23,645 nt of DNA, from positions 1-23,645 of the IMG/VR virus record IMGVR_UViG_3300020198_001172, one strand, 5' to 3'. Below are positions 870-17,319 of the stretch, one piece after another. The DNA is from a virus. The notes beneath the pieces are model-generated. The model saw only the letters and a list, made by a program, of their open reading frames with translations, was not told where the DNA came from and made no database searches. How positions within the stretch are numbered: the first letter of the stretch is position 1; every line of letters begins with the position of its first letter. A program made the position numbers and the translations under genes.

Positions 870-2012
870 TCACACGCGCATCGGCATCAGGACGGAGACA
901 GCGCCGACGATCGCGGCGTCGGGGACGATCCGCACGGGAGCGTCGGGGGCAGTGATCTGCAGGCGCAGGTGCTTCGACCCGATGCGCGCGGCGGCCCGCG
1001 CTAAGCCCGCCAGAAACTCGGCGTTCATGCCGATGCTCGGCACTTCGATTGAGCCCTGACAGGCCAACCGGGTCGCAGTCGTGCCGAAGTCGGGATTGTT
1101 GGTGCTGAGCCTGACGCCGCCCTCGCACGGCTCGAACTTGACCGCTCGGGCGCGGCCGCTCACCGCGGCCTTGGCGAGCTGCAGGGCGCGAGCGAGTTCT
1201 GGCAGCGCGACCTCGATCTCGGCGCCACCCTCGGCCGGCACGACGCGTCGCCAATCCGGGAATTTGCCGTCGACCAGCCTCGTGCGGATGCGGATACCGT
1301 TGGAGACGATCTCCAGCTTGTTCGGCCCGTCGCTGGCGCCGTAGGCGGTGATCTGAGCCTCGCCCGTACCCACCAGCGGCAAAGCCATCCTGACGGCATG
1401 GCGTGGGATGATGATCGGCGCGCGGTCGCTGTTCTGGCCGGCGAGGTTCGTCGTGCGAGAAACGAGGCGGTGGCCGTCGGTCGCCACGGCGATGGCCTGT
1501 CCCTCGCGGACCTCCAGGCAGACGCCGTTGAGGTAGTAGCGCGTCTCCTCCGTCGACATGACGTCGGCCGCGCCCCCGATGAGGTAGGCGAACACGCCGT
1601 CGGGCAGCACGAGGCTCCAGACGAGGCTGTCGATCGCGAGGGGCGGCAGATCGGCCGCGGGCAGAACGCCGAATGTCGCCTCTGTGTCGCCGGCACGAAG
1701 GGTCAGCCTGCCATCATCGCCGCCCTTGAACGCGACGGTCTCGCTCGCGATCGCACGCAACATGTCGCGCAGGCGGTGTGCCGGCACGCAGATGGCGCCT
1801 TCACCCCTGGCCTCGACCTCGACCCGCACCTCGTGGTCGAGGTTGGTGCCGGTAACAGCCAGCGTGCCGAAGCCCATCGCGAGGCTGGCATAGGAGAGGA
1901 TCGGGACGCCGCTCCGCTGGTCAATGGCCGAACCGACCCATGACAGCGCCTGCAGCAGGTCGGCGCGCTTGACCTCGACGGCGAACGGTGCCGCTTCCTT
2001 CTTCCGGCTCAT
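870..2012 (-). CDS. dnaN: DNA polymerase III beta subunit (sliding clamp), phage-encoded
   Basis: A 380-residue protein, full length for a bacterial beta clamp (about 365-390). Features typical of the three-domain clamp are visible: an N-terminal domain with a VPILSYASL-type segment, a central RYYLNGVCLEV followed by ATDGHRLV, then FPDWRRVVP, and the classic C-terminal end VLMPMRV. The homodimer ring encircles DNA and tethers polymerase and other clamp-binding proteins. The chosen ATG (2012) has GGAG eight bases upstream and overlaps the preceding stop by 4 bp; a longer frame to 2150 would cover the upstream gene. A temperate phage carrying its own complete clamp is unusual and points to self-sufficient or host-redirecting replication. 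The function call is firm; whether it replaces or competes with the host clamp is inference. Confidence 0.93.
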   Translation of the reverse strand: MSRKKEAAPFAVEVKRADLLQALSWVGSAIDQRSGVPILSYASLAMGFGTLAVTGTNLDHEVRVEVEARGEGAICVPAHRLRDMLRAIASETVAFKGGDDGRLTLRAGDTEATFGVLPAADLPPLAIDSLVWSLVLPDGVFAYLIGGAADVMSTEETRYYLNGVCLEVREGQAIAVATDGHRLVSRTTNLAGQNSDRAPIIIPRHAVRMALPLVGTGEAQITAYGASDGPNKLEIVSNGIRIRTRLVDGKFPDWRRVVPAEGGAEIEVALPELARALQLAKAAVSGRARAVKFEPCEGGVRLSTNNPDFGTTATRLACQGSIEVPSIGMNAEFLAGLARAAARIGSKHLRLQITAPDAPVRIVPDAAIVGAVSVLMPMRV

Positions 2013-2218
2013 GGGCAAGCTCCAGTGGTGAGAGAGGCGGCGCTCGCGGCGCGGCGCTCGTCCTGCAGGCGCGCGAGGATCCGGCAGACCTCGTGCTCGG
2101 GCAGGAGGGTCGTCTTCGCGATGTCGGCGCTGTCGAGCCGCCGAGCCCAAAGCTCTGCGACCCAGCGGCGATTGAAGGCGGCAATGGTCGGAGACGACTC
2201 GAACAGCGCCTTGCTCAT
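2009..2218 (-). CDS. Small putative helix-turn-helix protein, 69 aa
   Basis: A short acidic/basic protein, MSKALFESSPTIAAFNRRWV..., with a central LDSADIAKTTLLPEHEVCRILARLQDER. That segment reads as a compact helix-turn-helix (helix, turn around LLPE, recognition-like helix EVCRILARLQ). GGAG lies eight bases upstream of the ATG. The gene starts on the last base of the RusA stop (TGATG) and overlaps the clamp start by 4 bp, so all three are probably translated as a coupled unit. The family is not recognised. It could be a small regulator or a structural helper of replication. Longer alternative frames here are shadows of RusA. Confidence 0.72.
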   Translation of the reverse strand: MSKALFESSPTIAAFNRRWVAELWARRLDSADIAKTTLLPEHEVCRILARLQDERRAASAASLTTGACP

Positions 2219-2769
2219 CAGCCGATCTCCGCCAGCACGGTGAGCACCTGGCCCTCGTTCAAGCCAAGGGCGACGGCGATGTAGGCGGCGCTTTGGCCCT
2301 CGGCCGCGCGCACCTCGATCTCGGCCCGGTCTTGATCCTCCACGGGCAGGCCGGTGAGGACCATGCGGACCTCGGTGGCGGCGCGGTCGAACTCGACCTG
2401 GGTGCGGCGCACGTAGCGCTGGCCGTCGTCGGCGATGATGCCGGCGGCGACCGCCACATCGAGGCAGGGCTTCACGCGGTTGTCGATGTCGCCGCGGAAG
2501 GGCGGGAGGTAGATCGCCACATCGCAGGGGCCGGCCATCCGGCCGGGCCGCTGCACGTCGATCAGGAGCACCGCCTGCTGGCGCCACGCCCGGTACTTCG
2601 GCGTCTTCCGACGGCCGCCGGCGACGTTGTAGAACAGGCTGTTCGTGCTCGGCGGGAGCGGAAAACGGATCTCGACCGAGGGCACGATCCGGCGCTGAGC
2701 GTAGACCGGGCGCTCCTCGGGCTTGAGGCGCGCGCCCAGCTTTGCAGATGAGAGGGAGGACGCGCGCAT
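2218..2769 (-). CDS. rusA: RusA-family Holliday junction resolvase
   Basis: A 183-residue protein with the RusA hallmarks: a substrate-binding PPSTNSLFYN near residue 40, then GDIDNRVKPCLDVAVAAG (about 93-110) with acidic metal-binding positions D94 and D96, the nearby lysine K100, and a further aspartate pair at IIADDGQ (114-115). RusA enzymes cut four-way DNA junctions, here likely resolving recombination or replication intermediates before packaging. E. coli RusA is about 120 residues. The extra C-terminal 40 residues (RAAEGQSAAYIAVALGLNEG...) look like a small helix-turn-helix, an unusual addition. The first 30 residues may not be translated, since the ribosome site at 2769 is weak. The neighbouring clamp and GapR genes support a replication/recombination module. 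Confidence 0.88.
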   Translation of the reverse strand: MRASSLSSAKLGARLKPEERPVYAQRRIVPSVEIRFPLPPSTNSLFYNVAGGRRKTPKYRAWRQQAVLLIDVQRPGRMAGPCDVAIYLPPFRGDIDNRVKPCLDVAVAAGIIADDGQRYVRRTQVEFDRAATEVRMVLTGLPVEDQDRAEIEVRAAEGQSAAYIAVALGLNEGQVLTVLAEIG

Positions 2770-2774
2770 GTCGG

Positions 2775-3020
2775 CTACGCCATCCCGAGCGCCTGGAGGT
2801 ACAACTCCAGGATCGCCTCTTCCTCGGTGCGCTCGTCGTGGTCCTTCTTGCGGAGGCGGATGATCTGCCGAAGCACCTTCACGTCGAAGCCGTTGGCCTT
2901 CGCCTCGGCGTAGACCTCCTTGATGTCGCCCTTCAGCGCATCGACTTCCTCAAGCAATCGCTCAAGCCTCGCGATGATGCTCTTCAGCTGATCGGCGGCA
3001 ACGTCTGTCGTTTCTGTCAT
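2775..3020 (-). CDS. gapR: GapR/DUF2312 (UPF0335) DNA-binding protein
   Basis: An 81-residue protein with the family pattern: AADQLKSIIARLERLLEEVDALKGDIKEVYAEAKANGFD, then a basic LRQIIRLRKKDHDERTEEEAILELYLQALG. The first helix pair forms the coiled-coil dimer and the basic stretch contacts DNA. In Caulobacter the chromosomal homologue (about 89 residues) is a nucleoid-associated protein that clamps overtwisted DNA ahead of forks. Phage copies are common in Alphaproteobacteria, which supports the host assignment. The start at 3020 has AGGAG seven bases upstream and overlaps the preceding stop by 4 bp. A role in keeping phage DNA topology favourable during replication is likely but inferred. 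Confidence 0.9.
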   Translation of the reverse strand: MTETTDVAADQLKSIIARLERLLEEVDALKGDIKEVYAEAKANGFDVKVLRQIIRLRKKDHDERTEEEAILELYLQALGMA

Positions 3021-3619
3021 GCCCTTGCTCCTGCATTGGCGGAGACGGGCCAAGCCGCTCCACGTGCTTGCTTCCAGATACGGTTCTTCTTGATGAGGTG
3101 GATCGTGTGGATCGACACGCCGTAGTCGGCGCCGATGTCGCGGTAGCGTTCGCCCGCCGCGATGCGCTGGCGGATCACCGGGATCTGCGCTTCTTTAAGC
3201 TTGGCGCCGAAGACGCGACTGCCATGGCAGTGGGTGTTGTGCCGGGCGCGGTCGTGCTGGTTCTCGCGAGCGCTGGCCCAGCGCAGGTTGGACGCCTTCG
3301 CATTCGATGTGTCGCCATCGTTGTGGGCCACGATGGCCCCCTCGAACGGCGGCGGACCTAAGAAGGCAGCGGCCACTAGATGGTGGATGCGGGCAGACTT
3401 CCTCTTCTGTCTGCAGGACAGGGTGATGAACGGGTATTTCGCGACCGATGCGGGGCGTAGCACCCGATTGCGCCGGCGGACCTTCCCCCAAGAGCTGACC
3501 TCGTATCCCGGCCAATCGGGAATGGTCCGCCAAAGCTCGATCTCATCGAAGCGGGCGATGAGATCCGCTACGGAAAACGAGGTCTCACTACCTTGAATGC
3601 TTGCGGCATCCGTGGTCAT
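3017..3619 (-). CDS. NUMOD4-HNH homing-type endonuclease with C-terminal HTH
   Basis: A 200-residue protein with three parts. NUMOD4 (about 29-75): ELWRTIPDWPGYEVSSWGKV. HNH (about 79-125): HHLVAAAFLG, then AHNDGDTSNAKASNLRWASA with the conserved His/Asn and the NLRW tail. A C-terminal HTH-like region (about 138-182): AKLKEAQIPVIRQRIAAG and DIGADYGVSIHTIHLIKK. Free-standing enzymes of this design nick or cut specific DNA and often spread as homing genes. AGGAAGG precedes the ATG. A strong hairpin lies just upstream, at the junction with the previous operon gene, and the stop overlaps gapR by 4 bp, so it may be an insertion tailored to keep the operon coupled. No intron or intein is visible next to it. 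Confidence 0.88.
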   Translation of the reverse strand: MTTDAASIQGSETSFSVADLIARFDEIELWRTIPDWPGYEVSSWGKVRRRNRVLRPASVAKYPFITLSCRQKRKSARIHHLVAAAFLGPPPFEGAIVAHNDGDTSNAKASNLRWASARENQHDRARHNTHCHGSRVFGAKLKEAQIPVIRQRIAAGERYRDIGADYGVSIHTIHLIKKNRIWKQARGAAWPVSANAGARA

Positions 3620-5183: not shown

Positions 5184-5876
5184 ATGCGACAAGTTCGACA
5201 CGAACCGGATGGCGCCTGGGCTGAGATGCAAAAGGAAGAAGTGGCCGAGTGGGTCACGAAGACCCTTAAAGAGGCCGGCATCTCATTCGCGAAAGCGTCG
5301 CGCGCTCTCGGCCTGCCGCCGGACGCCATCAGCAAAGTCGCGCGCGGCGCAAGAGACCTTTCCGCTACCGAAATGGCGCAGATCGCCGATCTCGCCGGTG
5401 GAGAACTGCCGGCCATAGCCCTAGAAAGTGGGCCGCGTCCACGTTATGTTCCTGTGGTCGGCGAAGTCGCCGCAGGATTGTGGCGGGACGTGAACGACTT
5501 TGTTGACATAAGTCATAGTATTTTGTCCGCCGTTGACGCGCGCTGGCCTGCTCACAGCGTTTGCGCCTATAAGGTCGTCGGCGAAAGCATCAATCTTAAA
5601 GCGGGCGACGGCGATCACGTTATTGTGCTTTCTCACGATCAGGCCCCGCGTTGCTTGAGGAGTGGTGACTGGGTCGTCGTTGAGCGCACCCGGCACGACC
5701 TGCGCGAGCGGACGGTGAAACTCGCTAAGCAGGGCCCGAGCGGCGAGTGGGAACTGTGGCCGCATTCGACAGACCCTCGATACAAAGAGCCTGTCATCCT
5801 CGGCGCCCACGACGGCGAGGTGATAGAGCTTGTAGGGTTCGTTCTCGAATTCGTGTCCAAGGGCGTTCAGTTCTGA
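5184..5876 (+). CDS. cI: CI/LexA-type phage repressor (HTH + S24 self-cleaving peptidase)
   Basis: A 230-residue protein. The N-terminal HTH (about 25-75) contains LKEAGISFAKASRALGLPPD and AISKVARGARDLSATEMAQIADL. The linker holds a probable autocleavage site VVGEVAAGLW (Ala97-Gly98). The S24 core has the catalytic Ser135 in VVGESINLKAGD and Lys179 in RTVKLAK. On DNA damage RecA would promote self-cleavage and induction, as known for the family. Two starts are possible: ATG 5184 (AGAGG seven bases upstream) and ATG 5226 (MQKEEVAEW); the HTH is complete in both. An operator copy lies between the two starts. Codon use is slightly less GC-rich in the 3' half, suggesting mosaic origin. It sits between two promoters that share its operators. 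Confidence 0.9.
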   Translation: MRQVRHEPDGAWAEMQKEEVAEWVTKTLKEAGISFAKASRALGLPPDAISKVARGARDLSATEMAQIADLAGGELPAIALESGPRPRYVPVVGEVAAGLWRDVNDFVDISHSILSAVDARWPAHSVCAYKVVGESINLKAGDGDHVIVLSHDQAPRCLRSGDWVVVERTRHDLRERTVKLAKQGPSGEWELWPHSTDPRYKEPVILGAHDGEVIELVGFVLEFVSKGVQF

Positions 5877-8559: not shown

Positions 8560-8900
8560 GCCTCCCCGGCTTCGACGCCCCGCGGCTCGCGAGCCTGCGC
8601 GTCCGCATCCAAGACATGGCCGTCCGCCAGAACCGCTACCGCCGGGAGGCGCAGAGCATCGGCGTGCCTGCCGACTGCCCAGAGACGCATCGCCTCGTCG
8701 AGGCGGCTGAGCAGGACACCGCGGCGCTCGCGGATCTCGAGCGGCTGGTCTCGCTCGCGCTGCGCTTCGCCGCCGACGAGCAGAGCGGTCGGCCGGCGCC
8801 TGCGCCCGCGGCCGCCGATGCGCGCAGCCCCTCGGCTCAAGGACTCCTCGCCCGCGCCCTTGCTGCGCTTGCAACCTCACGTCCCGGGAGCGCCGCCTGA
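8553..8900 (+). CDS. Hypothetical helical protein, 115 aa
   Basis: ATG at 8553 overlaps the preceding gene by 7 bp, and the stop shares a base with the methyltransferase ATG (TGATG). The protein, MLSLPGFDAPRLASLRVRIQ..., is a long helical pair (DMAVRQNRYRREAQSIGVP and THRLVEAAEQDTAALADLERLVSLAL) with a Pro/Ala-rich linker and a final helix. It resembles short coiled-coil phage proteins, but no named family is evident. Tight coupling to the methyltransferase suggests co-expression; a functional link is not shown. Confidence 0.7.
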   Translation: MLSLPGFDAPRLASLRVRIQDMAVRQNRYRREAQSIGVPADCPETHRLVEAAEQDTAALADLERLVSLALRFAADEQSGRPAPAPAAADARSPSAQGLLARALAALATSRPGSAA

Positions 8901-9961
8901 TGCTCACCCCCTCCGAGACACGAGCGCGTGAGGCGCGGGCCTACTACAACGAGTGTGATCCCTATGCCGCAGAGTGGTTGCGCAACCTCATCGCGGCCGG
9001 GCTCATCACGGCCGGCGACGTCGACGAGCGCTCAATTGTCGATGTTCGACCTTCCGACCTGGACGGGTACGAGCGCTGCCACTTCTTCGCCGGCATCGGC
9101 GTCTGGGACTACGCGCTCAACCTTGCCGGATGGCCTGCGGGTCGCCGCGTCTGGACCGGCTCTTGCCCCTGCCAGCCGTTCAGTGCCGCCGGCCGGCAAG
9201 CCGGTTTCGCCGACGAGCGACACCTGTGGCCAGCATGGTTCGATCGCATCCGCGAGTGCCGCCCTGACGACATCCTTGGCGAGCAGGTTGAAGCTGCGGT
9301 GCGGCTCGGATGGCTCGACGCTGTTTTCGCAGACTTGGAAGGAGAAGGTTACGCCTGCGGGACGGTCGTTCTGGGCGCACACAGCGTCGGTGCTCCGCAC
9401 GTCCGCCTCCGGTCGTGGTTCATGGCCAACGCCGGTGGGGAACGACGCGACGGGCAGCCCGCACGCTTACGGCGGGCCAGCACGGGCGGATGGATCGCGG
9501 CCGATCACGCTGAAGCTGCCTGGCGCGGCGAAGTTGGCAACGTGGCCGACGCCGCGCGCGAACGACAGCACGGGGAGCAAGCCCGCGCCAAATGCGGAAG
9601 GATCGCCGGGCCTCAAGACGGTGGCCAGTTGGGCAACGCCATCGGCTCGGGACTTCCGGTCGGATCGCTCTGTGATGTCGAGCGAGGAACTGTACGGGTC
9701 GAAGGGGCAGCCCCTGGCTCGGCAAGCTCTCTACGCGGTTTCTGGAGCGGAGCGCAGTGGATCGAGTGCAGCGACGGAAGGCGGCGGGCTATTGAACCCG
9801 GCTCATTCCCGCTGGCTCATGGGGCTCCCGCCCGCGTGGGACGCCTGCGCGCCTACGGCAACGCGATCAACGCGGAAGCGGCAGCCGCCTTCATCGGCGC
9901 GGTGATCGACACCCTTTCCCCCACCCCGACCCCTGGCGGTCTCGCTGAAGGGGAGCGGTGA
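8900..9961 (+). CDS. dcm: C5 cytosine-specific DNA methyltransferase (Dcm type), orphan
   Basis: A 353-residue enzyme that transfers methyl from S-adenosylmethionine to C5 of cytosine in a specific site. Visible motifs in order: [15 protein letters not shown] (60-73); [14 protein letters not shown] with catalytic Cys91; VI, DILGEQV (125-130, Glu128); [13 protein letters not shown] (165-173); [19 protein letters not shown] near the C-terminus. The region between VIII and X, where the target-recognition segment should lie, is Arg/Gly/Ala-rich and of low complexity, consistent with overlap by another frame. No restriction partner is adjacent, so it is probably a solitary phage methyltransferase protecting phage DNA from host enzymes. 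The site is not predictable from sequence. Confidence 0.9.
9042..9905 (+). CDS. Overlapping-frame protein with WPTP repeats inside the methyltransferase gene
   Basis: In the +1-shifted frame a 287-residue protein runs from ATG 9042 ([20 protein letters not shown]) to 9905 with no stop. It is not random: it has [20 protein letters not shown], three spaced repeats [18 protein letters not shown] and SWATPSARD, and an ending [20 protein letters not shown]. From memory, phage proteins with the same TWK-x-TPAGR, WPTP-x-D and NPxxSRWLMG order are frequent and usually overlap a Dcm methyltransferase. That suggests true dual coding, or that the family is a recurrent mis-called shadow of a constrained gene. 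The frame is open further upstream to 8928 (GTG). No ribosome site stands out. Function unknown. Confidence 0.5.
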
Positions 9962-14139: not shown

Positions 14140-14786
14140 CCGGTCCCGTCACCACAGAGGCGCTGGTCGAAAAACTGGCGCGTGATCTGGCCCGCGAAGG
14201 CGGCTGGAATGACCCTGACGCTCCATGGACGGAGAACCAAGTCATCATCGCCCGCGGCGGTGCTGGCGAGCCCGTCTGGCGCGACTTCGTGGACAATGCC
14301 CGTTCACTGCTCGGCCGGGAGACGTTCACGACGCTCCTCGCCGCCCTTCAGCAGGTCACGGCCGAGAGGGACGAGGCGCGCGCAAAGATCGATGCGGCCC
14401 GCGTTGTCGCCGAGGGCTGGCCTGTCCTCAAGGGGCAGGAGACCCTCGCCGGGAAAATCATGACGCTCGCCGCTGCGGCTCGACAGGCACCCCTTGGCGA
14501 GCGAGGCACGCAGTTCGTCCTTCAGCACCTCATGCGCGCCCTAGACGCAGCAGACGCCACCACCTCCGAACTCGCCCAGCTCCGGGCCGAGGGAGAGGCG
14601 AAGGACAGGCGGATTGCGGCGCTGGAAGGAGCCCTGGCGCCCTTCGCGAAGGCTGGCGAGCTATTCGGCCCGCGGCTTTCCGACGACTACGACCAGTCCA
14701 TCTACGCCCCGGCGGCTGGGCCTGAGTTCGCAATCTCAGCCGACCATCTCCGAGCCGCCCACGCGGCCACGGCAAGGGAGGGGTAG
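14136..14786 (+). CDS. Ea22-like modular protein with coiled coil, 216 aa
   Basis: Begins MTGPVTTEALVEKLARDLAR with an ATGA overlap. The N-terminal module (about 1-50) contains WNDPDAPWTENQVIIARGG and WRDFVDNARSLL. The centre has a long coiled coil (AALQQVTAERDEARAKIDAA, then LRAEGEAKDRRIAALEGALA). The C-terminal module is LAPFAKAGELFGPRLSDDYD and ISADHLRAAHAAT. This architecture is common in phage proteins of unknown function and shares its final module with the protein at 12568. No enzymatic residues are evident. Confidence 0.76.
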   Translation: MTGPVTTEALVEKLARDLAREGGWNDPDAPWTENQVIIARGGAGEPVWRDFVDNARSLLGRETFTTLLAALQQVTAERDEARAKIDAARVVAEGWPVLKGQETLAGKIMTLAAAARQAPLGERGTQFVLQHLMRALDAADATTSELAQLRAEGEAKDRRIAALEGALAPFAKAGELFGPRLSDDYDQSIYAPAAGPEFAISADHLRAAHAATAREG

Positions 14787-14790
14787 AGCC

Positions 14791-15174
14791 ATGCGCGTCC
14801 TCGTCTGTGGCGGTCGCGACTACGCCGACCGCGCCGCCGTCGCCCGAGAGTTGGACGACTACCTTTACCGGGTCTCTCACCTCGTCATCATCCAGGGCGG
14901 CGCCTCCGGTGCCGACCAGCTCGCGCGCGATTGGTGCGTGCAGCGGTTCGTCAGCTACCAGCACTTCCCGGCCGACTGGCGCCGGCACGGCAAGGCCGCT
15001 GGCCCGATCCGCAATGCTCAGATGCTCGCCGATGGGCGACCCGATGTGGTCCTCGCCTTTCCTGGCGGGCGCGGCACAGCCGACATGATCCGCCAAGCCC
15101 GCGCGGCTGGCGTGCCGGTCCGAGAGATCCCCACCCCTGCCCTCAACCGTGAGGAGGCCGACCGTCATGGGTGA
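14791..15174 (+). CDS. SLOG-superfamily DUF2493/YspA-like protein
   Basis: A 127-residue Rossmann-like protein with the family's motifs in order: MRVLVCGGRDYADR, LVIIQGGASGADQLARDW, ADWRRHGKAAGPIRNAQMLA and LAFPGGRGTADMIRQA. The GG(R/A) and PGGRGT loops bind nucleotides or nucleotide-derived ligands in SLOG proteins, several of which sense signals or process nucleotides. DUF2493 members are frequent in phages and plasmids with an unsettled role, possibly nucleotide or signal-molecule salvage. The chosen ATG has GGGAGGGG nearby, five bases after the previous stop. The family call is strong, the function open. Confidence 0.88.
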   Translation: MRVLVCGGRDYADRAAVARELDDYLYRVSHLVIIQGGASGADQLARDWCVQRFVSYQHFPADWRRHGKAAGPIRNAQMLADGRPDVVLAFPGGRGTADMIRQARAAGVPVREIPTPALNREEADRHG

Positions 15175-15993: not shown

Positions 15994-16200
15994 ATGACGA
16001 TGCAGCAGGCCGACCCGTCGCGGTTCGTTGTCCGCTTCCCTGACGTAGCCCGGGAGCTGGGCGTTTCGCCGACGACGCTGCGCAAGCTCTGCAAGGAGGA
16101 GAGGGGGCCGCCCCTAATCCGCCTCAGCGAGCGCTGCTTCGGCGTCCGCCGGGGCGAGCTTGATGCTTGGATCGAGACCCGCAAGGTGGGCGGCCCATAG
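15994..16200 (+). CDS. xis: Excisionase-like MerR/AlpA-type HTH protein
   Basis: A 68-residue protein, MTMQQADPSRFVVRFPDVAR..., with a winged-helix pattern: PDVARELGVSPTTLRKLCKE, then the wing GPPLIRLSERCFGVRRGELD and AWIETRK. This is the layout of phage excisionases and AlpA-type regulators that bend DNA at att sites and direct Int toward excision. GAGGGGAGGG precedes the ATG. It sits at the end of the rightward operon, so it would be made after induction, as excision needs. Its last 87 bp overlap the 3' end of the convergent integrase gene, so the mRNAs are mutually antisense there. Confidence 0.78.
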   Translation: MTMQQADPSRFVVRFPDVARELGVSPTTLRKLCKEERGPPLIRLSERCFGVRRGELDAWIETRKVGGP

Positions 16201-17319
16201 GTCCAGGGCCGCCCGCTTCTCCGGATTGTAGAGGGCGTAATTGTAGACGCCCGCCACGCCCGCCTTCGTGCCTGAGATGTGGTTCAGCACGGCCTCGACG
16301 ACGTGCGGCAGTACGCCGAGGTTTCCCATTCCGGTGGCGGCGGTCCTGCGCAGATCGTGAAGCCGCCAGCCGGTGACGCCCGAGGCCCTGTCGAGCGCGG
16401 CCTTCGCCCGGGTGAACCCCTGGAAGCCGCCGACACCGCTTCCGAACACCAGCCCGCGCCCTTCGATCCGAGGCGCGTCGGCCAGGATCGACAGGGCGGC
16501 GTGCGACAGCGGCACGTCGTGCGGCAGTCCGTTCTTCGTCCGCTCGGCCGGCAGGTGCCAGATGCCGGCGGCGAAATCGATCTCAGGCCACGGGATCTCC
16601 GCCACCTCATCGCGCCGCTGCGCCGTCAGCAGCAGCAGCCGGACGATGCGCCCGAAGTCGCCTTCTGGCAGCGCCCGCAGGATGGCCGCGATCTCTTCCG
16701 GCCTCAGCACCCGCTGCCGGGGCTCCTCGCGGATCGGCTTGCGCGTCCCGACGACCGGGTTGGCCTCGGCCGCGCCCTCCGCGATCAGCCACGCATAGAA
16801 GGAGGAGAGGGTGGTGCGCGCTCGGTTCGCGGCGTGCGGGCCCGACCCCTTCGCGATCTCGCCCAGGCGCTCGGCCACCTGCGCTCGCGTCACGCCATCG
16901 ACCGGCGTCCTGTGCAGCGGCGCCCAGGCCTTCTGCATGTAGCGGGTCGACTCGCCGAGCCCCTTCACGCGCACTTGCGACGCCAACGCCTCGAGGTATG
17001 CCGGGATCTTCGAGCCCACGGTGACGGCGGCCCGCTTGCGCTCGGCCTCACGCTCCGCGCTCGGATCGGCGCCGAGGCGCACCCGGGCAAGCCGCTCGGC
17101 CGCCGCACGCCGGGCATCGGTCGCCGACAGCACGCCGACCTTGCCAAGGGTCTCGCGCTTCGTCTGGCCGGCAGCGTTCCGGTACTGGACGACCCACACC
17201 CGCGAGCCACCCGCATTCGCCCGCATCCCGAACCCGGCCAGATCGTCGTCGAAGACGATGACGTAGGCCTTGCCGTCTGGCACCTTCAGGGCCGCCGCGG
17301 ATTGGTTCGTGAGGCGCAT
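16114..17319 (-). CDS. int: P4-type tyrosine site-specific integrase
   Basis: A 401-residue recombinase. The N-terminal arm-binding domain (about 1-95; LKVPDGKAYVIVFDDDLAGF, GMRANAGGSRVWVVQY) is the P4-type fold. A core-binding SAM-like domain spans about 100-185. The catalytic domain has Arg235 (LTAQRRDEV), Lys262 (ERTKNGLP), His321-Arg324 (HDLRRT), His347 (LNHISG) and the probable nucleophile Tyr359 (GVYN). It would recombine attP with a tRNA gene, and a tRNA-Val fragment lies just upstream of its start. No good ribosome site precedes ATG 17319, and three GTAAGC arm-like sites lie 7-34 bp upstream, so Int may repress itself. The 3' end overlaps xis by 87 bp. Confidence 0.93.
   Translation of the reverse strand: MRLTNQSAAALKVPDGKAYVIVFDDDLAGFGMRANAGGSRVWVVQYRNAAGQTKRETLGKVGVLSATDARRAAAERLARVRLGADPSAEREAERKRAAVTVGSKIPAYLEALASQVRVKGLGESTRYMQKAWAPLHRTPVDGVTRAQVAERLGEIAKGSGPHAANRARTTLSSFYAWLIAEGAAEANPVVGTRKPIREEPRQRVLRPEEIAAILRALPEGDFGRIVRLLLLTAQRRDEVAEIPWPEIDFAAGIWHLPAERTKNGLPHDVPLSHAALSILADAPRIEGRGLVFGSGVGGFQGFTRAKAALDRASGVTGWRLHDLRRTAATGMGNLGVLPHVVEAVLNHISGTKAGVAGVYNYALYNPEKRAALDLWAAHLAGLDPSIKLAPADAEAALAEAD

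Follow-up and report, generated by a model that had tools for sequence, protein, structure and literature searches.

In C5-methyltransferases, the target-recognition region (TRD) sits between motifs VIII and IX. M.EaeI is a two-polypeptide C5-methyltransferase like M.EcoHK31I, which recognizes YGGCCR and whose small-subunit gene lies, in a different frame, within the large-subunit gene. Naturally occurring two-polypeptide enzymes of this class include M.EcoHK31I and M.AquI (PMC3404938): the larger subunit of M.EcoHK31I carries motifs I–VIII and X together with the predicted TRD, the smaller subunit carrying motif IX, and in M.AquI the split falls between motifs VIII and IX (PMC3404938). The small domain of C5-methyltransferases contains the variable region and motif IX (PMC3404938).

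Layout of the alpha and beta frames

The locus studied here lies in the window, i.e. the whole 23,645-nucleotide stretch of viral DNA that was analyzed. It contains a methyltransferase frame of 353 residues, referred to below as alpha (PF00145, E = 1.6e-12; phrog_363, E = 4e-73, by profile searches), and a second gene, beta, which is nested entirely within alpha in the +1 frame (Table 1). The +1 frame is uninterrupted from 8901 to 9905 (334 codons); with its start set at the internal ATG by homologues, beta comprises 287 residues, and its 864 bases agree with the sequence-only reading, which had described both frames as open for about 860 bases. We put at about 0.86 the probability that the locus encodes, from a single piece of DNA, a two-subunit C5-cytosine methyltransferase: alpha would provide the AdoMet-binding and catalytic core (motifs I–VIII) together with motif X, and beta, translated from the internal +1 ATG, would contribute a helix–hairpin module, target recognition by WPTP repeats and motif IX. 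The two polypeptides would assemble into one enzyme, a heterodimer in which beta would supply sequence recognition and in which alpha, over the stretch that overlaps the recognition region, would form a flexible linker joining motif VIII to motif X.

Table 1. Coordinates in the window of the two overlapping genes and of their putative functional elements
Feature	Position	Strand	Basis
alpha, putative catalytic subunit (C5-cytosine methyltransferase motifs I–VIII and X)	8900..9961	+	PF00145, phrog_363
beta initiation region, GACGAG...ATG	9023..9044	+	conserved ATG and Shine–Dalgarno column in homologues
beta, embedded +1-frame gene (helix–hairpin module, WPTP repeats, motif IX)	9042..9905	+	phrog_1008, homologues, constraint tests
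alpha motif I (FFAGIGVW)	9083..9106	+	homologue alignment
alpha motif IV, catalytic Cys (PCQPFS)	9167..9184	+	invariant alignment columns
beta helix and beta-hairpin, residues 71–117	9252..9392	+	best modelled, together with residues 131–170; conservation far above shuffles
alpha motif VI (GEQV)	9278..9289	+	invariant alignment columns
alpha motif VIII (PHVRLR)	9395..9412	+	conserved alignment columns
beta WPTP box 1 (WPTPVGND)	9423..9446	+	sequence; W128, T130 and P131 invariant in the alignment
alpha predicted linker across the recognition segment, residues 185–279	9452..9736	+	low pLDDT, almost no alpha-frame conservation
beta WPTP box 2 (WPTPRAND)	9543..9566	+	sequence; low alpha third-position variability
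beta box 3, degenerate (WATPSARD)	9630..9653	+	sequence; low alpha third-position variability and shuffle excess
beta motif IX (putative)	9792..9839	+	third-position variability 0.11; in-frame counterpart in L262
alpha motif X (including LRAYGNAI)	9839..9868	+	alignment; helices 310–319 and 325–339 in the model

Motifs I, IV (PCQ), VI and VIII occur in alpha in canonical order and form invariant columns in alignments of 12 and of 62 homologues. The motifs assigned to this frame by the sequence-only reading (I, IV, VI, VIII and X) were all found, motif VI being GEQV and not ENV; motif IX is absent from alpha. Matches to the M.HhaI family in the PDB cover profile positions 71–168. In the AlphaFold2 model of alpha, pLDDT is mostly 87–97 at residues 11–160, mixed (65–90) at residues 161–180 and below 50 at residues 185–187 and 189–279, and motif X is modelled. 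Values this low are expected if the stretch is an out-of-frame linker, and both the model and the alignment indicate that residues 185–279 are really a fast-evolving, predicted-disordered linker and not the recognition region. It had been suggested that the TGGCC(A/G)ACGCC cassette falls in the recognition region of the methyltransferase frame. The analysis does not bear this out: alpha is barely conserved there and predicted to be disordered, and it is beta that holds the WPTP boxes and motif IX, which are homologous to the in-frame recognition region and motif IX of one-frame relatives.

The one-polypeptide layout of PF00145, in which the recognition region, motif IX and motif X stand together, is not found in the window, where alpha holds motif X but beta holds motif IX and the WPTP boxes. 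At the DNA level, the motif order is nevertheless the canonical VIII–TRD–IX–X, the TRD–IX portion being read in +1, and beta motif IX ends at the very position where alpha motif X starts (9839).

With the same motif split as M.EcoHK31I, the window locus belongs to the known two-polypeptide kind. Compared by description, the likeness lies in a large subunit with motifs I–VIII and X, a small subunit with motif IX, and a small-subunit gene nested within the large one in a different frame. However, the published prediction places the TRD of M.EcoHK31I in the larger subunit, whereas in the window the recognition region is assigned to the smaller subunit, TRD-like repeats being found in beta. Moreover, M.EcoHK31I is part of a restriction–modification system, whereas the window locus lies in a temperate phage, and the window proteins scanned include no recognisable restriction endonuclease partner. 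An arrangement like that of M.AquI is seen in three relatives (L308, L309 and L276), in which alpha carries motifs I–VIII and an overlapping beta carries the TRD, IX and X; in the window, by contrast, alpha carries motif X and the genes overlap over the entire length of beta. We also looked in plasmids for relatives of EcoHK31I/EaeI, but the best new alpha match (a Klebsiella aerogenes plasmid, 66% identity) turned out to be the decayed residue of a phage, split into three parts, and no restriction–modification locus.

Retention and constraint of the +1 frame

By tblastn, alpha has matches in 399 phage records and the +1 protein in 196. Frequent second-frame stops in homologues, which the sequence-only reading had set as a test of dual coding, were not seen downstream of the beta ATG: in 12 diverse phage loci, +1 stops either lie no further downstream than the window ATG or fall at the extreme end. 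Large sets of loci were gathered with beta as the query and, separately, with alpha alone. Beta is in +1 relative to alpha in all of the first 253 loci. In 109 dereplicated loci there is not one beta-frame stop, versus 2.8 expected per locus from within-gene synonymous codon shuffles; since a near-full beta was an entry requirement for this set, the unbiased check is provided by the 79 loci selected with alpha only. Full-length beta lies in one open frame in 78 of these, and full-length alpha is present in 77, i.e. beta is retained as well as alpha. With alpha as the sole query, a sample of 295 genomes from one bacterial family yielded 23 matching genomes, in which beta is in +1 at every alpha locus except a 51-residue fragment (L444). 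Note that two bacterial genomes carry damaged copies: a single stop in beta with alpha intact (L428), and an alpha broken by a stop with beta mostly open (L450).

The +1 frame could, in principle, be open merely through high GC content, the amino-acid constraint on the methyltransferase and the repeated cassette. The window is indeed GC-rich and, taken alone, would be expected to show 2.4 +1-frame stops on average from synonymous shuffles, with a probability of no stop (0.025) that is not negligible. Yet beta-frame stops are equally absent from loci below 45% GC (0 versus 5.1 expected each, n = 3), and in a Bacillota-type set of 23 diverse sequences there are none over alpha residues 76–270, with 75 upstream and 80 downstream. 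Across homologues, with no stop in the 109 dereplicated loci, chance openness of the +1 frame is excluded.

The pattern of synonymous variation argues in the same direction. Third positions of alpha codons have a variability of 0.4–0.6 over most of 8933–9250. This variability goes down to the first-position level at 9293–9382, is lower than that of first positions at two WPTP boxes (9518–9562 and 9608–9652), and reaches the minimum of the locus, 0.11, at 9788–9832, over beta motif IX; an artefact would not account for such a collapse over motif IX and the boxes. We compared beta-frame similarity with that of synonymous shuffles of alpha by a sum-of-pairs test on 158 sequences. The excess, in BLOSUM units per column, amounts to 2.9 at 9740–9850, 1.7 at 9241–9420 and 1.1 in the WPTP zone, versus 0.2 upstream of the beta start (control); because the z-values are inflated by shared ancestry, the evidence is the region-to-region contrast. 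The control excess of 0.2 indicates that, where alpha is conserved, some of the similarity in +1 arises as a by-product, as an artefact would have it. The single-ORF control for this test consists of just five dereplicated actinophage sequences and is not a clean negative because the beta N-module is in +1 there too.

Among alpha-synonymous changes in 59 independent close pairs, beta omega falls from 1.80 upstream of beta to 0.60 in the N part and 0.36 in the core; it is 0.67 over the recognition zone and 0.32 in the IX/X zone. Alpha itself is under little constraint over the recognition zone (omega 0.77, 59 close pairs). The beta values of 0.32–0.36 in the core and IX zones again speak against an artefact, which we regard as scarcely credible. 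Synonymous-site conservation in the methyltransferase frame, which had been put forward as a check, is strong where beta is conserved, by both the shuffle and the omega tests, and the repeat-driven artefact once offered as an alternative does not hold, as conservation reaches well beyond the repeats, to the helix–hairpin module and motif IX. The distribution of stops in homologues and the constraint on synonymous sites thus agree with the proposal of genuine dual coding: judged by comparison of homologous loci, the overlap of the +1 and methyltransferase frames is real, and both frames are conserved genes.

Beta also appears to have its own start. An ATG is present at the column of window position 9042 in 109 of 158 homologues, and GGAG or a stronger sequence stands at Shine–Dalgarno distance in about 74 of the 109 sequences with the ATG versus 3 of the 49 without (Fisher's test, about 2e-14, computed with 75); many homologues have AAGGAG or AGGAG at this site. 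The alpha Arg44 codon, which forms the Shine–Dalgarno sequence (within VDERSI), is enriched in AGG relative to the other alpha Arg codons (odds ratio 7, 5e-23). The Shine–Dalgarno sequence of the window's own beta is weak (GACGAG, 13 nt before the ATG), and the beta starts of actinophages and of the Bacillota type are located further downstream, several of them after AAGGA-like sequences.

These signals bear on a different reading, in which programmed ribosomal frameshifting joins alpha and beta into one fusion (I–VIII, TRD and IX). That beta is in +1 throughout would suit such a mechanism, as would four loci (L278, L295, L383 and L422) in which the N-terminal part of alpha continues into the beta frame as one ORF, owing to deletions or sequencing errors. 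However, part of the catalytic motifs is missing from several of these fused contigs, which resemble common indels or errors in sequencing, the internal ATG and its Shine–Dalgarno sequence are conserved, and the fusion would be devoid of motif X, which is conserved downstream in alpha. M.EcoHK31I, too, consists of two polypeptides (PMC3404938). We consider frameshifting very unlikely and retain the reading of two separately initiated subunits.

Identity of beta and its counterparts in relatives

Residues 46–314 of the +1 protein align with positions 13–287 (of 329) of phrog_1008 (E = 1.3e-24), and the protein also matches phrog_31772; both families are labelled 'DNA methyltransferase'. The beta family has no entry in Pfam or NCBIfam, and searches of the PDB gave no sequence match and no fold match at E <= 0.001. 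When the beta model was compared with a viral-structure library, only phage methyltransferase-like or uncharacterised relatives scored above threshold; these matches are explained by sequence similarity and do not constitute fold evidence. The AlphaFold2 model of beta is weak as a whole (mean pLDDT 60, pTM 0.30); it is locally confident at the helix–hairpin module and one repeat unit, and speaks neither for nor against the TRD assignment.

Members of the beta family have two to several W-P-T-P-x-x-x-D units between the helix–hairpin module and motif IX. The cassette positions given by the sequence-only reading (9423, 9543 and, for the degenerate copy, 9630) proved correct, and the ordered motifs that it quoted for the +1 protein are found in its sequence. 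Of its 'three WPTP-x-D repeats', the three spaced boxes stood but the formula did not: two are WPTP and one is WATP, and the spacing is WPTP-x3-D.

The function of these repeats is suggested by relatives in which the same segments occupy one frame. In Mycobacterium phage IrishSherpFalk (L262) and in viral contigs L307 and L315, motifs I–VIII, the LPTP/WPTP repeats, an LNP...LMG...GW block and motif X are found in one ORF; in L262, the in-frame counterpart of beta motif IX is LNPAFPEWMMGWPTGW, just before motif X. A profile of the C half of beta matches ORFs in which motifs IV and X are found as well (L262, 1e-8; L307, 3e-6), and phrog_1008, which was built independently, matches the C half of the main ORF of L262 (1e-57) and L307 (2e-16) as well as beta of Paenibacillus phage Genki (6e-72). 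As far as sequence comparison goes, these matches show that relatives have motif IX and the WPTP region, which alpha lacks and beta contains, in the frame of motifs IV and X, and that beta is homologous to the TRD/IX half of a methyltransferase. The conserved beta block fits motif IX of C5-methyltransferases, as identified through these relatives and, given that the TRD lies between motifs VIII and IX in this class of enzymes, beta would carry the TRD plus motif IX. The actinophage Dcm-type methylases (e.g. IrishSherpFalk gp71) share the motif order, with LPTP/WPTP-x-x-x-D repeats followed by LNP-x-F-x-EWMMG (IX); they differ in having the recognition repeats, IX and X together in the alpha frame, the +1 frame of actinophage genes being limited to the helix–hairpin module plus one to a few boxes (one in gp71).

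It could be argued that beta is a real, conserved protein that is simply overprinted on the methyltransferase and works independently of it, for instance in anti-restriction or regulation. Beta does have its own start signals and no Pfam match, and its helix–hairpin module is overprinted on alpha IV–VIII in nearly every locus found with it, whatever the type: alpha with motif IV is in the -1 frame in 60 of 68 such loci. As this N-module also occurs in +1 where relatives encode the TRD and IX in the alpha frame, it is by itself no proof that beta is the TRD subunit. The remainder of the protein argues otherwise, since its WPTP repeats and motif IX are homologous to the alpha-frame recognition region and motif IX of relatives, and alpha has no motif IX. 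Furthermore, beta is apart from alpha in only a few frame-broken or truncated contigs: no clear case of a stand-alone beta was found among the 68 N-module loci, the eight loci outside the 60 being frame-broken or truncated contigs or without the regex motif. An independent protein is thus improbable in our view, and a recognition subunit of the methyltransferase remains the preferred interpretation of beta.

Annotation, phage context and significance

The families phrog_363 and phrog_1008 match window alpha and beta, respectively, and bear the same label, 'DNA methyltransferase', but these labels are silent on their being two frames of one locus. Both frames are annotated in Escherichia phage K1ind1 ('putative C-specific methylase' and 'putative Mte8-like protein') and in Paenibacillus phage Genki (both as 'DNA cytosine methyltransferase' genes); in the other phage records checked, a single frame is annotated or the label is wrong. 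In Pseudomonas phage PMG1 (L009), a frameshift at about 1577–1600 breaks alpha near residue 46, and beta, which is intact, is itself the annotated 'DNA methyltransferase'. The entire alpha/beta locus of Salmonella phage SAP012 (L255, 1971–2793) is unannotated in the deposited record. In Klebsiella phage KpV2811 (L011, 1360–2721), the beta ORF runs stop-free into the annotated endonuclease VII gene (2263–2721), possibly forming a beta–EndoVII fusion.

The statement of the sequence-only reading that many phage proteins overlap Dcm genes in this way is borne out across the homologous loci. A literature search that had most subscription papers outside its reach found no published description of this overlap in phages; the breadth of the arrangement and the location of the recognition region in the small subunit may be new.

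The window is that of a temperate phage, as recognized by an integrase (16114–17319, minus strand) and an S24-type repressor (5184–5876, plus strand); it also encodes an excisionase-like protein, an endolysin and tail proteins. Several other ORFs were noted: a YAcAr family protein (YspA/cpYpsA-related SLOG; 14614–15174, plus strand, E = 4.5e-21), an HNH endonuclease (3017–3619, minus strand; phrog_59, 6e-37), a phage sliding-clamp-like protein (870–2150, minus strand; phrog_947, DNA polymerase processivity factor) that also matches phrog_3007, labelled RusA-like resolvase, and a separate RusA-like ORF (2218–2769, minus strand). In line with the general biology of temperate phages, and since no endonuclease partner was seen among the scanned proteins, the likely role of the window enzyme would be the modification of phage DNA against host restriction.

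Beyond the window, we think it fairly probable, with less confidence than for the two-subunit reading itself, that a large clade of C5-methyltransferases in phages and prophages (from Pseudomonadota, Bacillota and actinophages) has the two-frame overlap as its standard, long-established layout, that the canonical motif order is preserved on the DNA while the recognition, IX and X segments have moved between frames according to lineage with the TRD in the small subunit, and that the recognition half of many 'Dcm' genes lies in +1, unannotated. The relatives include apparent intermediates (TRD–IX–X in the alpha frame; alpha with an overlapping TRD–IX–X; alpha with X and an embedded TRD–IX), so that the evolution of the overlapping gene pair may be traceable stepwise. 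A single 'DNA cytosine methyltransferase' is the annotation given to many phage and prophage loci. If this is true, a gene so annotated would make the catalytic half only, and its apparent recognition region would be an out-of-frame linker, specificity being set by the overlapping gene. The prediction of methylation specificity would be affected, and so would cloning, as recoding the codons of the annotated ORF would destroy beta. Such an architecture would also bear on how two essential halves of a protein evolve on the same nucleotides.
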